The notes: generated by a model from the letters alone, not told the origin. A DNA stretch of 64,000 nucleotides from Roseimicrobium gellanilyticum (GCF_003315205.1 NZ_QNRR01000002.1:94881-158880); one strand, 5' to 3'. Counted from the first letter of the stretch, positions 8,003 through 17,357 are shown. Program-made: numbers and translations.

Positions 8003-9754
8003 TTACCCCACCAGTTCCTTCTCGAGCGTAATCTCCGACTCTTCCCGCGTGCTCGCCGCCGCGTGGAAATGCACATGCGTGAACACGCGGCGCACTAGTG
8101 CCAGGCCCATGCCGCCTTCTTCACGGGCGCCGGAGTGGGCTTGGGCGGCGGCTTCTTCCTGGGAGATACCGCGTCCGCGATGCTTGATGGTGAAGCGCAA
8201 CTTCGCGGGTTCCATGGCTGCGGTGCAGGTGATGGGGCCCGGAGGCTGGTCGATACCGTAGGCGTGCTTCAGGATATTCGTCAGCACTTCGTCGCAACCC
8301 ACGAGGATTTGCACCTTGGCATTCTTGTCGAAGCCGGCGAAGTCGAGCCAGCTTTCGCAGAACTTGCGCGCATCCCGGATGCTCTCCGGGGTGCAGGCGG
8401 CTTCAAAGACGGAAGCGGGCGGGGGAGTCGCGTCCATAAGGAGAAGAAGGGTGGCGTCATCGCGCGCGCCATCCTTCAGGAGGGCGCGCCATTTCGTGAC
8501 GAGGGTTTCGATGTCCGTGGACTCATGCCACGCGGCGTCATTGAGAATGCCGAGCAGACCTTCACGACCAAGCTCGGAGCCATCTTTGATCACGGCTTCG
8601 AGGATGCCGTCTGACTGCGCGAGCCAGTGCGTGCCTGAGCCGAGTGCCATGGAGGCCACCTTGCACTCCGTGAGACGACGCTGACCGAAGAACGGCTGCC
8701 TCGGGCACGCAATCTCTTGCCACGTGCCATTCTCGCGTGAGCGAAAGAGCGGTGGCGCCTGGGCGAATGCGGAGGCCTGCACACGGCGATGCTTCAAATC
8801 AAAGAGCAGCACCGTCAGCGCCGCCGCATTGTCACCGGCGTGCATGGCTTGATACAGTGTGTTGTTCAGCGTCGCGAGCCATGCGCTGAATTTTTCCGGC
8901 ACACACTGCGAAGCCGTGAGCGCGATCTGCGTGGTGAGTCGTGCCATGTCCAGCGCAGCGCTGGAGCCTTTGCCAGTGACATCGCCTACTCCAGCAAGCA
9001 GCAGATGCGGATTTGGTGAGTGAAAGAAGTAGCAGTCACCACCAATGCCCGTCGCTTGCTCCAGATACGCCTGCATGCGTAGTGGACCATGCGTCGCACG
9101 GGGTTCTGGGAGGAAGGTTTCCTGCACCTGCCGCGCCAGTTCCATCTCCACTTTGCGCTCGGCCTCTTCCACCGCGCGGGCTTTGGCCTGCTCTTCCGCC
9201 TCGCGTCTGCCGAGGGTGACGGACACCAGCGCACCGAAGGCCATGAAGATGCGCATGTCCTCTGTGCCGAAGTGCTCGCGATCTTCTGGATTCATTGCCT
9301 GCATCACGCCGCGGCAATGCTCTCCATCGAGCAGAGGAATGGTGAGCAGGGCTTGCGTTGCGAGACCCGCATCTTGCCCGGTGCGGCGGTAGTGCTCCGG
9401 ATGTTTCGCCGCATCCGAGGTATTTACGGCCTCGCGGGATTCGAACACACGACCGGCAATGCCTTGTCCCTTGGGCAAGCGCCATGCGCCCTCCTTCTTC
9501 CAATCGCGTTGCGTGCTGTGAATCAGCAAATCACCACTCGCTGCGTCCGGCAGTGAGATGGAACATGCTGCACACCGCATCACTGCGCGCGCGCCATGCA
9601 GGATATTCGCCAGCAGCGATTCGAAGTCGCCGGAGCGATTCAGCGAAGCCGCCACGCCAAGCAGTGTTTCCACCAGCAGACCTTCGCCGTGCGTGGAGGG
9701 GATGGCGGTCACCGATGTGTCTTCGGCCTCCCGTGGTTGTGCAGGCTTGCTCAT
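8003..9754 (-). CDS. GAF / SpoIIE-type PP2C phosphatase / HATPase regulator
   Basis: This is a 583-residue cytoplasmic signalling protein. I chose the start at 9754 (MSKPAQPREAE) over an upstream ATG at 9796. It has an N-terminal GAF sensor domain (about 45-190), then a coiled linker rich in E/A/K (RREAEEQAKARAVEEAERK). A SpoIIE-like PP2C phosphatase follows, with GGDCYFF, GDVTGKGSSAAL and DDATLLLL. The C-terminal RsbW/SpoIIAB-like ATPase (about 455-583) has VGCDEVLTNILKHAYG and GGMGLALVRR. Such proteins switch STAS-domain partners by phosphorylation. It follows mlaD in the same direction after a 419-base repeat island, and a STAS gene lies four genes upstream. Confidence 0.9.
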   Translation of the reverse strand: MSKPAQPREAEDTSVTAIPSTHGEGLLVETLLGVAASLNRSGDFESLLANILHGARAVMRCAACSISLPDAASGDLLIHSTQRDWKKEGAWRLPKGQGIAGRVFESREAVNTSDAAKHPEHYRRTGQDAGLATQALLTIPLLDGEHCRGVMQAMNPEDREHFGTEDMRIFMAFGALVSVTLGRREAEEQAKARAVEEAERKVEMELARQVQETFLPEPRATHGPLRMQAYLEQATGIGGDCYFFHSPNPHLLLAGVGDVTGKGSSAALDMARLTTQIALTASQCVPEKFSAWLATLNNTLYQAMHAGDNAAALTVLLFDLKHRRVQASAFAQAPPLFRSRENGTWQEIACPRQPFFGQRRLTECKVASMALGSGTHWLAQSDGILEAVIKDGSELGREGLLGILNDAAWHESTDIETLVTKWRALLKDGARDDATLLLLMDATPPPASVFEAACTPESIRDARKFCESWLDFAGFDKNAKVQILVGCDEVLTNILKHAYGIDQPPGPITCTAAMEPAKLRFTIKHRGRGISQEEAAAQAHSGAREEGGMGLALVRRVFTHVHFHAAASTREESEITLEKELVG

Positions 9755-9789
9755 GGTTCGAAGCGCGGAAGCGCTGCTCCCAAGGATCG

Positions 9790-10135
9790 GGGGCACTCCT
9801 GCCTGTAGACGCTAACCGAGGCAGTAGATGTATTTGTCCCGGAGGGACAGCGGAACGTTAGCCGGTCGGTGAAGGGAGCCTTGGCGACCGCAACCACCGG
9901 ATCACCGTGGTGAAAAACATTCCGTCCCGGATGGGACGGCGGAAGAGGGATGGCAGGATCGGATGATGTGTCATCGCCAGGCAGTCCGCTTCCGGCGTGC
10001 CCTCCGGGACGCCATGAGGTTTCCGTAGGATCCGGTGGTTGCGGTCGCTGAAGCTCCCTGCACCACCGGCTACCATTCATTGCTCCCTCCGGGAGCAATG
10101 AAGGAAGCATCAATTGCGACGTGGAGTTCATCTTG
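9790..10135. repeat. palindromic repeat island between mlaD and the SpoIIE-type gene
   Basis: Three structures are visible. TTTGTCCCGGAGGGACAGCG (about 9831-9850) is answered by CGTCCCGGATGGGACGG (about 9931). GAGCCTTGGCGACCGCAACC (about 9874) is inverted at about 10030-10055. A perfect 12-bp-arm hairpin, TTCATTGCTCCC-TCC-GGGAGCAATGAA, occupies 10076-10102. No coding region is credible here. The island separates the regulator gene from the transporter genes and lacks a T-run, so it is not an obvious terminator. Confidence 0.75.
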
Positions 10136-10173
10136 GATTAGCGGCAACGGCTCTCCTGTCTCACTGCATCGAA

Positions 10174-11301
10174 TTACTTCCGTGGCAACGGCGGTGCTGT
10201 CCTCTGGCCACTCGTGCCTGTCCTCGGAGTCACGGTGCCACCGCGCTGTTGAATCATCTTGTCCTGCTCCTTGTTCTTGCCCCACACCACGGCGTTGGGT
10301 TTGAGGGAGAGCATTTCCATGAAGACATCCACACGCTTCGCGGCATCGCCGACCTTGTCAGACGCACTGCCCAGCTTTTGAATTTGTGTCTCGCTGCGGC
10401 TGATGGCCTTGCCTGCTTTGTCCAAGGCGGAGGAGACCTTCTGCAATTCAGATACGGTCTGCTCCTTTCCTTCCAGAAGCGTGCTCACGATGTCCTGCCA
10501 GCCACCGTCGATATCCTGCGTGAGATCGATGAGGCCTTTCTTGCTTCCATCCTTGCTTCCGTTGAAGAGCACGTTCATCGCCGTGGTGCTCTGCTCCAGT
10601 TCGGCGACGGCGTTCTTCAGTTCAAAGGCGAGGCCTTCATCCTGCTGACCCTCGGGACCGGCGATGATTTTCTTCAGTTCATCCATGGTCTCCTTCACGG
10701 GGGTCATCACCAGGTGATCCATGTCATCATTCACTGTCTTCAGCATGTCCTTGGAGACCGTGGCCATGGCTTTCACTTCCACCATCGCTTGCGCGGCGGC
10801 ATCCACGGCCTTCTTGGCATTCTCATCCAGACCGGGTAGCACGGAGTCCGCGCGGCTCAGGCGCACGCCTTCGATGCAATGCAGCTCTTCGATCGAGCCC
10901 TGGTGATTTTCCGTGATGGAGGCCAGCGTAGCCAGGCCTGAGTGCATGGGGTGTGTCCTCAGGGAAATGTGCGACTCACCAAAGAGCGAGCTCTCCAGAT
11001 AGGGTTGCACATTGGCGGGAATCTCCACCTCGCTCTGCAGGTCGATGCGCACGAGTATCTTGTCCGTCTTCGGCTCATACTGCAGAGCGCCCACGGAACC
11101 CACCGGCATCCCTTTGAAGAGCACCTTGGACTTTTCCTTGATGCCGGTGACGTCATCAAATGACGCTGCGAAAGAAAGCTTCGTGCCCGACCCGCCGCCA
11201 ATTGCCCGGTAGATGGCAAAGAGCAGGATGCCGGCTACTGCCACGATGAGCAGCACCAGCACCGCATCGTAGGAGCCCTTGAGTGATTTCAGAAGTTTCA
11301 T
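10174..11301 (-). CDS. mlaD: MlaD-family substrate-binding protein (MCE domain)
   Basis: This is a 375-residue protein with an N-terminal transmembrane anchor (AVLVLLIVAVAGILLFAIY, about 13-31). A single MCE domain (about 38-120) follows, with the family-typical DVTGIKEKSKVLFKGMPVG stretch. The rest is a long helical region rich in A/K/D/E, ending in a Thr/Pro-rich basic tail. MCE proteins are the periplasmic lipid-binding part of Mla/Mce ABC systems that move phospholipids between the membranes. It directly follows the ATPase gene with a gap of 27 bases. Length is greater than in E. coli MlaD because of the helical extension, as in many Mce proteins. Confidence 0.9.
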   Translation of the reverse strand: MKLLKSLKGSYDAVLVLLIVAVAGILLFAIYRAIGGGSGTKLSFAASFDDVTGIKEKSKVLFKGMPVGSVGALQYEPKTDKILVRIDLQSEVEIPANVQPYLESSLFGESHISLRTHPMHSGLATLASITENHQGSIEELHCIEGVRLSRADSVLPGLDENAKKAVDAAAQAMVEVKAMATVSKDMLKTVNDDMDHLVMTPVKETMDELKKIIAGPEGQQDEGLAFELKNAVAELEQSTTAMNVLFNGSKDGSKKGLIDLTQDIDGGWQDIVSTLLEGKEQTVSELQKVSSALDKAGKAISRSETQIQKLGSASDKVGDAAKRVDVFMEMLSLKPNAVVWGKNKEQDKMIQQRGGTVTPRTGTSGQRTAPPLPRK

Positions 11302-11328
11302 GGGGAAAGGGGAAGTGGCATCGAGAGC

Positions 11329-12153
11329 TCAGGCTACAGTGCCTGCTGCAGCGAGGTCCTCGGCAGGTTGGAGAAAGGCGCGGACCAGCGGATGCGTGCT
11401 CGCGTGAAATTCCTGCTTCGTGCCGGAGAGCAGCACGGTGCCGCGCACCGCACCATCCCGCTCCGCGCCGAGCATGATGCCGCGTGTGGCGATGCGCTGG
11501 AAGCTCAGGAGATCGTGTGTCACCACGATTACTGTCGCTCCGCTCTTCCGGCTGAGGGTGATGGTGAGATCATCGATTTCCTTCGTGCTCACCGGGTCGA
11601 GCCCGGAGGTGGGTTCGTCGCTGATGAGCAGCTTCGGATCCAGCGCCAATGCGCGTGCGAGTGCGGCACGCTTCTTCATGCCGCCGCTGAGTTCACGTGG
11701 ATACTTGTCCGCATGCCGCGACAGTCCCACGGCGCGCAGCTTCATCATCACGGTGTCCTCCAGCAGTTCCCTGTCACTCGCGATCTCCGGGTGGTGCTGC
11801 TGGAATGGCAGCGCCACATTCTCCGCAATGGTCAGGCTCTGCAGCAGCGCCCCTGATTGGAAAAGCACGCCCACATCCCGCATCAACGTCGCGCGCTTGG
11901 GACGGGGGAGTTGGTGGATGTTCTCACCGAGCACATGCACTGAGCCCTCGCTTGGGGCATCCACACCGATGAGGATGTTCAGCAGGGTGCTCTTCCCGCA
12001 GCCGGAGCCTCCGAGGATGGTGAAGACGTCCCCCGCATGCACTTCGAAGCTCACGCCATTGAGCACGCGCGTGCCATTTGGGTAGGCCTTTACCAGGTCC
12101 TTGACCACGAGCAGAGGCCCGGTGGCTGGCGTGGATTTGGCAGCGGGTGACAT
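11329..12153 (-). CDS. mlaF: MlaF-family ABC transporter ATPase
   Basis: This is a 274-residue cytoplasmic ATPase. The start at 12153 (MSPAAKSTPAT) lies two bases after the permease stop, which implies translational coupling; the longer ORF is an antisense-like extension into the permease gene. It has Walker A GGSGCGKST (48-56), Q-loop FQSGAL (about 99), signature LSGGMKKRAALARAL (155-169), Walker B LLISDEPTSGLDP and switch His in VVTHD. It is predicted to power lipid movement with MlaE and to bind the STAS protein encoded first in the operon. Confidence 0.95.
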   Translation of the reverse strand: MSPAAKSTPATGPLLVVKDLVKAYPNGTRVLNGVSFEVHAGDVFTILGGSGCGKSTLLNILIGVDAPSEGSVHVLGENIHQLPRPKRATLMRDVGVLFQSGALLQSLTIAENVALPFQQHHPEIASDRELLEDTVMMKLRAVGLSRHADKYPRELSGGMKKRAALARALALDPKLLISDEPTSGLDPVSTKEIDDLTITLSRKSGATVIVVTHDLLSFQRIATRGIMLGAERDGAVRGTVLLSGTKQEFHASTHPLVRAFLQPAEDLAAAGTVA

Positions 12154-12155
12154 GG

Positions 12156-12911
12156 TTAGCGTTTCAGAAGCAGTTGCAGGCCGGTGATCACCGCGTTGAT
12201 GGCGGTCACGGAGACGAGCGCGGTCACCACGGCGGCGGTGGCCACACGTCCCACGGCATCGGAGCCGCCCGTGGCATTGAGTCCTTTGTTGAAGGCAATC
12301 ATGGCTGCCATGAGAGAGAATACCCATGCCTTGCCGATGCTCAAAAGCACGTCACTGATTTGCGCCCCTTCAAGCGCGCGCACGACGAATTGGTCCACAG
12401 ACATGCCCAGCGTTTGCGAGCAGATGAGGAAGGCGCCAATCAATCCCACGCCCACGGTGTAGATGGTCATTACGGGCAGCATCAGCGCGAAGGCCGCGAG
12501 CACCGGCAGCAGGATGTACCGCGAGAGGTCCACGCCCATTGTCTCCAAGGCCTTGATCTCCTCCGCGATCTTCATGTTCGCCAGTTCCGCCGCCGTGCCG
12601 GCCACACTGCGACCGATGAAAACCGTCGCGGTGAGCAGGGGCGCGAGCTGGTGATTGAGAATTACCCAGATGAGCCGTGGCACGCGGTCCTGCATGCTCA
12701 ACTTCGCCAGCTGCTCCTGCAGCACCAGCGCAATCACGAGGCCCACGCAGAGTGACATCAGGAAGACCGTGGGCGCGGCGCGCACCCCGACGGACAGGGC
12801 TCGCTGGAAGAAGGTCTTCCACATGCTGGCGGGCAGCCAGGGACGCTCCATCGCTCCGCGAAACATCGCCGTCGAGAGACCTGGATAGCTGTATTCACTG
12901 CCTGGCTTCAC
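12156..12911 (-). CDS. mlaE: MlaE-family ABC transporter permease
   Basis: This is a 251-residue integral membrane protein with about five hydrophobic segments (for example VFLMSLCVGLVIALVLQEQL, YILLPVLAAFALMLPVMTIY and VATAAVVTALVSVTAINAVI). The stretch GRSVAGTAAELANMKIAEEI and LETMGVDLSRY is the characteristic MlaE/YrbE conserved loop. Partner genes mlaF and mlaD follow immediately, and a STAS gene precedes by 33 bases. Together they form a complete inner-membrane MlaFEDB-like complex. No outer-membrane MlaA or periplasmic MlaC is encoded within the window. Confidence 0.93.
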   Translation of the reverse strand: MKPGSEYSYPGLSTAMFRGAMERPWLPASMWKTFFQRALSVGVRAAPTVFLMSLCVGLVIALVLQEQLAKLSMQDRVPRLIWVILNHQLAPLLTATVFIGRSVAGTAAELANMKIAEEIKALETMGVDLSRYILLPVLAAFALMLPVMTIYTVGVGLIGAFLICSQTLGMSVDQFVVRALEGAQISDVLLSIGKAWVFSLMAAMIAFNKGLNATGGSDAVGRVATAAVVTALVSVTAINAVITGLQLLLKR

Positions 12912-12944
12912 GTGAAGAAGAGAAAGAATGTTGCCGTGCTGGGA

Positions 12945-13319
12945 TCAACTGGCCTTGCCCGCTGCCTTCGCCATCGCGAGCGTGTCATACACCGCGATGT
13001 GGCCACCCTCGGCGGATTCGAGGCCCACACCGTTGATGTCAAAAGCGGCCCGCAGCGCCTCATTCATGCCTGAGATGGCGAGCCGCGAATCGGGATGCCC
13101 ATCAAGCTGGTAGCGCTGCATGGCCGCCCAGAAGGGCGTGTTCAGAAAGGTGACGCCGGACAGGTCCACGATGAGCAGCGGAAGCTTCTGCGCGAGCAGT
13201 CCCTTCAAGAGCTGCCTGACCGCCGGCACCGCCAGGAAGTCCGCCTCGCCCGCAAACTTGAGGACCTTTCCCCCGGCATGCGACTCCTCTTCATAACCCA
13301 GGTGCGGGGACAGATTCAT
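12945..13319 (-). CDS. STAS-domain protein, MlaB-like
   Basis: This is a 124-residue single STAS domain. The core VDLSGVTFLNTPFWAAMQRY aligns with the DxSxVxxxDTAG region of MlaB and the phosphorylation loop of SpoIIAA. Here the D-T/S-x-G motif is N-T-P-F, so a Thr is kept where MlaB has T52, but the acidic residue and the Gly are lost. It is the first gene of the mla operon. The expected role is to bind and stabilise MlaF. Because a SpoIIE/HATPase protein is encoded at the end of the same gene run, phosphorylation control is possible; this is inference. Confidence 0.85.
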   Translation of the reverse strand: MNLSPHLGYEEESHAGGKVLKFAGEADFLAVPAVRQLLKGLLAQKLPLLIVDLSGVTFLNTPFWAAMQRYQLDGHPDSRLAISGMNEALRAAFDINGVGLESAEGGHIAVYDTLAMAKAAGKAS

Positions 13320-14207: not shown

Positions 14208-17200
14208 TTGCAAAATTCCTCAAGGATGCCGAATGTCAGGGTAATCGAAAGCATGCCGGGTCCTACGCAATTCCGACATTACCTCATCGCCCAAGAAGCT
14301 GGGGGGAAAAATATCGAGGTGGTACGGTCCGCAGAACAGGTGGGCGTGCTCGCCTTCGATTTGGAGCGGCATGTCTTCGTCCACTTCCACGTCCTGCTGG
14401 AGCCGCTGAAGGACAAGACCGTATTCGAGGAGCGGGCGAAGCAGGTGCGCGCTCGTGGCCATACCCGGCTCGCCCGTCTGCTGGACTACGGCGAGGATGA
14501 TGGCAGTCCCTTTTACATCACCACGAATGTGGATGGGGAGACCTTGCGCAGTTATTTGGAGCGATCGGAGTCCCTCCCAGTGTGGCTTGCCATGCAGGTC
14601 ACCCACTCTGCGCTGGAAGCCATGCAGGCGTTGATTGAGGTGGGGGATTTCGTGCCGACCCAGCCGCTGGACGCACTCCGCATCATCCAGACTGGACCCC
14701 AGTCTGTGGAGGTGGAAGTCGCAGACTACCGCCTCATGGAAGAGCCCGTCGGCAAGGCAGCCAAGGCCAGGCAGGGACGGTCGCCTCTGGAAAAGCAGGG
14801 CCAGTTCCTCAATGCTTTTTTTCAGGAGCGATTGGAGAGCGGTGAGTCACCGGCATCGGCCACCCTGCAGACGGCGGATTTCATCGAGTTGCTTCAGAAT
14901 CTTCTCAGTGCCTGCGGACCGGAAAAGCAGGAGGCCCTCGCGGCCTTGCTGAAGGAGCTTTCCACGCTCATGCCGCCAGCGCCACCTGTGGAGCTGCCCT
15001 CCGCGTGCAAGCCGCGTCCCTACCTCGCAGTTCTGCTGGCGGGTTTCACCGAGGTGGCTCGCAGCATTGCTTCCACGGTACGCATCCAGAGTCAGAAGCT
15101 GGACCCATATCATCCTTATTCGCTGCGGGGTACCATGCTGAAGCTGGGGCAGGCCGTGGTGGTGGAGCAGGTGCCACCCTCCAGGCTGGCAGGCACGATT
15201 CCTGCGGAGCTTTTCCAGCAGGTGCAGAATCTCCCCAAGGCTGGCAAATTTCCCAATCTCGTCCCCGTGCTCTTCGTGGAGGAAAAGGACGGTATCCAGA
15301 CGGTGGCGGAGACGGCGGTGGAGGGCGTGACCCTTCAGGAAGTGCTGGAGGTGCGTGATACGCTCGGCGTGCAGGAGATCTACCTGGTACTCGCCGGAGT
15401 GGATGCTGCTCTGGCCCAGCTTGAGAAAGCCGGCCTTCCTGCGCGGCGTCTGCGTTTGGAGGATGTCTTCCTCTTCACCGGAGTGGGCCAGGAGTCGCCT
15501 CGCGACAGCGGTCTTCTCTCTCGAAAGCTGAATGAGTGGTCTGGCTTTTCCGTCGTCATTCGTGCGCATCCCTGTCTGCATGCCATCGCAGGCAGAGGCA
15601 CAGATCCCGCCGTGCTGCTGCCGCTCGATGCAAACAAGAGCGATGATGCCGAGCCCATCTGGAACGGTGGGTGGATGGCGGCGCTCGGTTGTTTCCTGGC
15701 GGGCATGCCGGATGCGGATGCCACGAAGCACGAGGCGGGGATTGCGGAGACAGATAGCGTCCGCCGCCTGCTGGAGGAGGAAGTCCGCCATGCCCGTGAG
15801 GGAGCGCCCATCAAGCGTGCCGCATTCCTGGCGAAGTACGCCCGTGTGATGCAGCAGTTTGACGTCGCGAAGTCCGCCCGCACGGGTGCCGTGTGGTCAG
15901 AGGTCAGCGGTGGCCAAGCTGCAGCGAGCGCCCCAGAGGCGCAGGAGGCTCCTGTATACCAGCCGAAGGTCGCAGGGCCAGCGCCCGCAGAGGGACTTCG
16001 TCAATTGACGCGCCTGCCGGAAAAAAAGGGGGCAACCCCGCCACTGACAAGCGCTCCGGCACATAATCCTCCTCCAAAGCCCACCATCGGCTTTGCCGAG
16101 GCGCTCATCCGGCAGACTCAGGCTCACGACCCAGACGACCACTACGAGGGTGGGGGCTTGCGGCCCATTCGTGGCAGAATGCATGAGTTGCCCGAGAGCG
16201 AAAGCTCCTGGCGTCCCATGCACGAGGAAACCTCCCTGTGGATCCGGGTGGCCTTGCTGCTCATTGGGTCCCTGGTGCTGGGGGCGATACTCGCGCATCT
16301 TTCAGGCCGGGCTCTGTGGCAGGATATCCCGGCTCCCAAAGCGGTGCTGGCCACCGACCCTCTCGCGCCTGATGCGCCCATCATTGACCTGCCGGTTGCG
16401 CCCAAGAAGCAGCCATCATCTGGTGCGCCCACCTTGCCAGCACCGACAGGTTCTTCCTTCAAGGATGTGAACTTGGAGCCAAAGGCCACGCCTCCGCGGG
16501 CCGGCTCGGCTGCGGGTTCCGTGGCTCCCGCCGCTCCGCGCCCGGCTTCGGCTGCTCCTCCTCAGGCACCCACCATCGCTCCTGTGCCTCCGCCTCCGGC
16601 GATGACCAACCCGGTTGCATCGACATCCTCTTTGCCCGCGCCAGTGGTGTCTCCTGAGACAGCGGGAATGGATGCCAAGTTGGATGCCCGGCTGGCGGAA
16701 TTGCGGCTCTCCGGCGGCAAGCTCCCCGCTGCCTTGCGGGTCGAGACGGAGCGTGCAGCCTCACGGGGAAATGCCGAGGCCATGCTCGCGATGGGCAGAT
16801 CCAGCCTGCGCGGTGAAGTGGGCGCGGTGGATGAGCGCGCTGCGTACATCTGGTTTGAAAAGGCGGCACAGGCCGGAAGCGTTCCTGCAAATGTGCCTCT
16901 GGCAGAATGCCATCTTCAGGGCTGGGGCACGCCCTCGGATCCTGTGAAGGCCGTGGAGCTGCTGAGCATTGCTGTTGCCGCAGGCGACAGCCAGGCTAAG
17001 GACCTCCTCGGCGTGTGCTACCGCCTCGGGAAGGGGGTTCCCCGGGATGATGCGCGGGCGTTTGCGTTGTGCAGTGAGGCCTATCGCGCCGGGATCGTCT
17101 CCGCCTGTGGGAATCTGGGGGCGCTGTACCTTCGGGGGCAGGGCGTGGCGGAGGATGCGGCTCTCGCGGTGCAGCTCTTTGCCGAGGGGGCACGTCGCGG

Positions 17201-17357
17201 TCATGCAGAGAGCATGCAGCAGTATGCGCACGCGCTGGAGTATGGCACTGGCATTCCTGCCGACCGCGCTCAGGCGACGCAGTGGTATCAGAAATCCGCT
17301 GCTCTGGGCAATGCGGAGGCCTCGGCCTGGTGTCGTGAAAAAGGCGTGGTGTATTAA
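14208..17357 (+). CDS. tandem pseudokinase / Sel1-repeat membrane protein
   Basis: This protein has up to 1049 residues (TTG 14208; ATG 14226 gives MPNVRVIE). Residues about 25-190 resemble a protein-kinase fold: HTRLARLLDYGEDDGSPFYI and VDGETLRSYLE match the alphaE/hinge region. However, the HRD loop is replaced by VPTQPLDALRI and DFG by ADYR. Residues about 268-480 repeat this pattern, with FPNLVPVLFVEEKDG and LPARRLRLEDVFLF. A transmembrane helix (WIRVALLLIGSLVLGAILAHL, about 678-700) leads to a Pro/Ala-rich linker and C-terminal Sel1-like repeats (about 840-1045; YRLGKGVPRDDARAF, YLRGQGVAEDAALAV, YGTGIPADRAQATQWYQKSA). It probably scaffolds signalling across the inner membrane. Confidence 0.8.
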   Translation: MQNSSRMPNVRVIESMPGPTQFRHYLIAQEAGGKNIEVVRSAEQVGVLAFDLERHVFVHFHVLLEPLKDKTVFEERAKQVRARGHTRLARLLDYGEDDGSPFYITTNVDGETLRSYLERSESLPVWLAMQVTHSALEAMQALIEVGDFVPTQPLDALRIIQTGPQSVEVEVADYRLMEEPVGKAAKARQGRSPLEKQGQFLNAFFQERLESGESPASATLQTADFIELLQNLLSACGPEKQEALAALLKELSTLMPPAPPVELPSACKPRPYLAVLLAGFTEVARSIASTVRIQSQKLDPYHPYSLRGTMLKLGQAVVVEQVPPSRLAGTIPAELFQQVQNLPKAGKFPNLVPVLFVEEKDGIQTVAETAVEGVTLQEVLEVRDTLGVQEIYLVLAGVDAALAQLEKAGLPARRLRLEDVFLFTGVGQESPRDSGLLSRKLNEWSGFSVVIRAHPCLHAIAGRGTDPAVLLPLDANKSDDAEPIWNGGWMAALGCFLAGMPDADATKHEAGIAETDSVRRLLEEEVRHAREGAPIKRAAFLAKYARVMQQFDVAKSARTGAVWSEVSGGQAAASAPEAQEAPVYQPKVAGPAPAEGLRQLTRLPEKKGATPPLTSAPAHNPPPKPTIGFAEALIRQTQAHDPDDHYEGGGLRPIRGRMHELPESESSWRPMHEETSLWIRVALLLIGSLVLGAILAHLSGRALWQDIPAPKAVLATDPLAPDAPIIDLPVAPKKQPSSGAPTLPAPTGSSFKDVNLEPKATPPRAGSAAGSVAPAAPRPASAAPPQAPTIAPVPPPPAMTNPVASTSSLPAPVVSPETAGMDAKLDARLAELRLSGGKLPAALRVETERAASRGNAEAMLAMGRSSLRGEVGAVDERAAYIWFEKAAQAGSVPANVPLAECHLQGWGTPSDPVKAVELLSIAVAAGDSQAKDLLGVCYRLGKGVPRDDARAFALCSEAYRAGIVSACGNLGALYLRGQGVAEDAALAVQLFAEGARRGHAESMQQYAHALEYGTGIPADRAQATQWYQKSAALGNAEASAWCREKGVVY

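Follow-up and report, generated by a model that had tools for sequence, protein, structure and literature searches.

The locus studied here occupies positions 8003 to 13319 of a 64,000-nucleotide stretch of Roseimicrobium gellanilyticum DNA, hereafter the window, and is encoded on the minus strand (Table 1). Reading frames and Pfam matches gave the gene order STAS-MlaE-MlaF-MlaD-GSH with all five genes in the same direction, where GSH is our shorthand for a GAF-SpoIIE-HATPase protein. One operon holds the Mla transporter gene set of MlaE permease, MlaF ATPase and MlaD MCE protein, and no mlaC was seen among its genes. An earlier sequence-only reading of this DNA had named STAS, MlaE, MlaF and MlaD in a row, and the Pfam matches bear out this run. 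It had also placed GSH next in the same direction, which stood, although the gene does not follow closely on mlaD in the window. GSH, by homology, probably starts at ATG 9754, with GTG 9796 as a possible alternative, and mlaF probably starts at ATG 12153. Pfam recognized GAF, SpoIIE (5.1e-19) and HATPase_c_2 (4.1e-17) in GSH, and matched the STAS protein weakly to PF01740 (4.9e-5, barely above the cut-off). Divergent from the operon, positions 14208-17357 (+) encode a 1049-aa protein that has C-terminal Sel1 repeats and an N-terminal part matching no Pfam family.

Table 1. Genes and features of the locus, in window coordinates.
Feature	Position	Strand	Remarks
STAS protein, MlaB-like, 124 aa	12945..13319	-	motif VTFLNTPFWA; Thr61
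mlaE, permease, 251 aa	12156..12911	-	PF02405, 4.9e-50
mlaF, ATPase, 274 aa	11329..12153	-	Pfam ABC ATPase; without C-terminal Y...LL handshake helix
mlaD, MCE-domain protein, 375 aa	10174..11301	-	PF02470, 2.5e-12
GSH: GAF - SpoIIE (PP2C-type) phosphatase - RsbW-type HATPase	8003..9754	-	Pfam
Dispersed, partly palindromic repeat in the mlaD/GSH interval	9826..10098	-	about 25 places in the genome

A 419-bp gap separates mlaD from GSH in the window, and the repeat lies inside it. The repeat is about 265 bp long and has roughly 25 copies in the genome that are 69-87% identical, many of them matching on both strands. A spacer of 17 bp lies between mlaD and GSH in a sister genome (G061), and the two genes overlap in nearly all other clade members, mostly by 4-8 bases. 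These spacings indicate that the five-gene operon is ancestral and that the gap in the window was inserted later. Within the repeat, a terminator-like hairpin at 9939-9922, which is within chance expectation, could uncouple mlaD and GSH.

Among 68 genomes of the window's family, 24 have a GSH ortholog, as do 2 others sampled from the order, at 35-92% identity. A scan of GTDB contigs added one GSH contig (L116), its other near matches largely repeating genomes already sampled. GSH is located directly behind mlaD at 24 loci and directly behind STAS at 2, and the one remaining locus (G206) is cut by a contig end and unreadable. Hence, 24 of the 26 readable clade loci have GSH right after mlaD, and STAS, mlaE and mlaF precede the pair wherever the contigs extend that far. 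The regulator's linkage in relatives, on which the sequence-only reading had staked its proposal, survived this comparison, since every readable GSH gene lies behind mlaD or STAS. In the first of the two exceptions (G043, locus L108, C118 6930-6980), exactly the mlaE-mlaF-mlaD segment is gone from between STAS and GSH, the flanks match those of L101 on both sides, and the surrounding gene order is unchanged. In the second (G025, locus L110, C37 1438-1460), STAS adjoins GSH without mlaEFD, and a toxin-antitoxin-like gene pair lies beside them. No window-type MlaE was found elsewhere in either genome; both are metagenome assemblies, in which the missing mlaEFD may be an assembly artefact. Because both genomes without mlaEFD retain STAS and GSH, the two proteins are suggested to be partners. 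Four clade loci (L097, L101, L106 and L112) have an extra stretch of ~400-500 bp between mlaE and mlaF.

The wider class was surveyed through its best-scoring MlaE (PF02405) matches, chosen regardless of whether GSH was present; a second batch leaned towards short MlaE frames, and other searches supplied a few control loci. We scanned ~12 kb around each MlaE with local profiles, for a total of 79 loci, and the comparison as a whole covered about 100 related loci. An RsbW-type HATPase was present at 13 of the 17 Mla loci carrying STAS, 11 of which also had SpoIIE, whereas the operon strand of the 62 STAS-less Mla loci encoded neither (Fisher p = 9e-12 for STAS and HATPase across the 79 loci). 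The survey loci are only partly independent in descent. Collapsed to GTDB families, assigned by hand, the same association was 7/10 versus 0/32 (p = 4e-6). The regulator parts always lay behind mlaD, whether as a fused GAF-SpoIIE-HATPase (L165, L168, L186, L202, L211 and also L152), as separate GAF-SpoIIE and HATPase genes (L171, L190, L203-L205 and L210) or as a lone HATPase (L169 and L175), and Pfam confirmed representative genes. The STAS-E-F-D-regulator order was constant in about 10 families. Paralogous Mla loci provided within-genome controls: the second Mla locus of the window's genome (G000; C6:234202, L238) is STAS-less and has neither HATPase nor SpoIIE, and in G738 locus L210 can be set against L167.

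In E. coli, the groove at the MlaF-MlaB boundary receives Y261, L265 and L266 from a C-terminal extension of MlaF (PMC7367683), a contact we call the handshake. A Y...LL handshake ending, as in NGEADGPIPLRLSKDDYLKRLL, occurred at 16 of 17 STAS loci and at none of 61 STAS-less loci (p = 1e-15), and the seventeenth STAS locus has a conservative variant. This co-occurrence suggests that the STAS protein binds MlaF and, because the handshake tracks STAS so closely, that it is very probably a genuine MlaB. At four STAS-less loci (L206, L207, L208 and L183, of families f10 and f107), MlaF keeps an NGEADGP-like stretch without the Y...LL helix; there, STAS and handshake seem to have been lost together. 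Within the window's clade, 21 of 23 MlaF proteins have the handshake, and it is absent from the window's genus.

Thr61 of the STAS protein aligns with T52 of E. coli MlaB (VTFLNTPFW in the window, VSRVDTGGL in E. coli), as the sequence-only reading had claimed, and also with Ser58 of SpoIIAA. Its conservation held up as well: the clade motif is NTPxW with the Thr invariant, and relatives have Ser at this position, as in a partner-switching phosphosite. The change from Asp to Asn ahead of this Thr need not mean that the phosphosite is dead, because a canonical RsbV-like STAS protein encoded in the same genome has the motif YINSAGL. The modelled HATPase and STAS folds resemble SpoIIAB/RsbW and SpoIIAA/RsbV, respectively.

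Relatives outside the clade are canonical in all three components. Their STAS motif is YIDSSGL (IASSGL in L152), their HATPases have the N-box and G1 Asp of an RsbW-type ATP site, and their SpoIIE domains have all four Asp. A tree of SpoIIE domains gathered every Mla-linked one into a single supported group (98/94), to which just 2 unlinked domains also belong. The first, in G661, belongs to a SpoIIE-HATPase gene pair located away from that genome's STAS-Mla locus, which has neither gene, and control in trans is possible there. The second is in G610, whose Mla locus is without STAS, so the group is not strictly dedicated to such loci.

The sequences themselves show which genes are present and how they are conserved, that STAS goes together with the kinase and phosphatase genes and with the handshake, and that most relatives have intact catalytic residues; from there we infer phosphorylation, its direction of effect, the signal and every enzymatic step. 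We judge it reasonably probable that the operon's products are an Mla-type lipid ABC transporter with an MlaB-like STAS protein and a dedicated partner-switching regulator. Unphosphorylated MlaB would bind MlaF and hold the ATPase at the transporter. The RsbW-type HATPase would phosphorylate MlaB, or simply capture it, at the Ser/Thr central to the MlaF interface, switching transport off. Transport would be switched on when the SpoIIE phosphatase, under the control of a signal at GAF, strips the phosphate. In E. coli, MlaF cannot join the transporter without MlaB, and the T52E phosphomimetic weakens MlaF binding (PMC7367683). Given the class survey and the correlation with the MlaF handshake, control of MlaB by partner switching is the best explanation for the wider group and appears well supported. 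Against it stand the clade's loss of the G1 Asp, the window MlaF without a handshake, the persistence of STAS and GSH without mlaEFD, and the 4 of 17 STAS-Mla loci that have no linked kinase. A broader reading, to which we lean slightly, is that an entire class within the Verrucomicrobiota controls lipid transport by a full partner-switching circuit whose kinase half was rebuilt in the window's clade. In this reading MlaB would be the phosphorylated switch, an RsbW-type kinase and a GAF-gated SpoIIE would set its state, and the transporter would be the direct output.

The G1-box Asp contacts adenine in GHKL ATPases. The window's HATPase has the RsbW-type fold and the N-box, but a His aligns with the Asp of RsbW, and clade orthologs have His in all but one, which has Phe. 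Kinase action by this domain is therefore doubtful. By contrast, the other HATPase_c_2 matches in the window's genome keep the Asp, and a canonical RsbW-RsbV-RsbU-like cluster is located elsewhere in that genome (C3:400342-403563). The window's SpoIIE domain keeps the four metal Asp of a PP2C-type phosphatase (GGD, GDVTGKG, SDG and DDAT), and phosphatase action on MlaB is likely. The phospho-switch of the sequence-only reading is thus strengthened for the group by the survey, the handshake and the canonical motifs, but unsupported in its kinase step at the window locus itself. With the G1 Asp replaced and the handshake lost in its genus, the window is the most derived member rather than the best example. 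In its clade, the kinase activity of the HATPase would probably be lost or changed and the phosphatase apparently active; phosphate may come from another kinase, such as the RsbW encoded at C3:400857 of the same genome, or the HATPase domain may act as a binding module.

These substitutions raise, with about an even chance, the alternative that the clade's switch is degenerate or rewired, leaving GSH with a dead-kinase HATPase and a role only as a phosphatase or as a ligand-controlled STAS-binding protein. The change of the STAS motif to NTPxW in the same clade points the same way as the G1 substitution and the loss of the handshake in the window's genus. However, the N-box Glu/Asn and G2 Gly residues are conserved, the Thr is invariant, the SpoIIE active site is intact, and the clade's residues hold steady instead of drifting. 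This alternative is compatible with partner-switching control of MlaB as the best explanation for the wider group.

A second alternative, which we consider unlikely, is that STAS and GSH constitute an ordinary partner-switching module for another target, such as a sigma factor or other effector, and merely share the Mla operon. The STAS protein's profile scores are indeed nearer SpoIIAA (5e-19) than MlaB (0.006). Its AlphaFold model is likewise closest to SpoIIAA, RsbV and other anti-sigma antagonists, with E. coli MlaB ranking lower, and shows a last strand and helix that E. coli MlaB is without (PMC7367683). The pair may also have another target in the two genomes that retain it without mlaEFD. 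In contrast, STAS co-occurs with the very handshake that contacts MlaB in E. coli, and the gene order is constant across families. A neighbouring sigma factor as the target was rejected, as no sigma-factor family occurred among the 25 of 32 families listed for 36 flanking genes of 13 loci.

It is less likely still that the complex of MlaB with the HATPase is a structural one that involves no phosphorylation, the Ser/Thr being needed only for contact with MlaF. This would agree with E. coli MlaB working with no known kinase and with T52A killing ATPase activity while binding remains (PMC5016091, PMC7367683), the latter being a poor fit to simple phospho-control. However, a PP2C-type phosphatase with intact metal ligands shares the operon at most loci and would have no obvious use without phosphorylation. 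Finally, loci within one clade are non-independent, but an artefact of shared ancestry or chance neighbourhood is highly improbable given that the association holds at the family level, at ~36% protein identity in the order, in three gene architectures and against paralogous Mla loci, and chance neighbourhood was rejected by the linkage across the order together with the class survey.

The operon is like E. coli MlaFEDB in its MlaE, MlaF, MlaD and STAS subunit with Thr at the T52 position, and relatives share the Y...LL ending that the window's MlaF is without. It is unlike MlaFEDB in that its STAS protein is SpoIIAA-like and longer (124 versus 97 aa), kinase/phosphatase genes follow mlaD and mlaC was not seen. 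With the Bacillus SpoIIAA-SpoIIAB-SpoIIE and RsbV-RsbW-RsbU systems it shares a STAS antagonist with a Ser/Thr site, an RsbW-type GHKL kinase and a PP2C-type phosphatase. The apparent output, however, is a subunit of an ABC transporter and not a sigma factor, the kinase and phosphatase are often fused, and the G1 Asp is missing in the window's clade. The fusion of SpoIIE to an RsbW-type HATPase resembles M. tuberculosis Rv1364c, which has RsbU-RsbW domains in one chain (PDB 3ke6) and which GSH matches in sequence across both domains (7.5e-8), although in GSH a GAF domain precedes these two and the gene belongs to an Mla operon.

Phosphorylation of MlaB was put forward in 2016 (PMC5016091) and left open in 2020 (PMC7367683). 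The sequence-only reading had known of no described case, and our search of the open-access literature brought up neither a kinase or phosphatase linked to MlaB nor anything relevant tying partner switching to Mla, lipid transport or ABC transporters; the hypothesis of MlaB phosphorylation had, however, already been printed in both papers. What is new here is that two known kinds of system, the Mla transporter and partner switching, are joined. As MlaB usually co-occurs with a switch-protein gene, the phosphorylation question becomes directly testable, and the operons put both candidate enzymes beside their probable substrate in a minimal gene set for expression and assay. Partner switching is best known for transcription control. 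If our explanation is true, an ABC transporter too is under its direct control, which would offer a rapid means to switch lipid flow across the envelope. One STAS-Mla locus without RsbW or SpoIIE (L164; G737 C100, 150-3961, minus strand) has behind it a response-regulator-like gene and a 1056-aa protein that is PAS-like as judged by eye, perhaps an alternative sensor wired to the same transporter.
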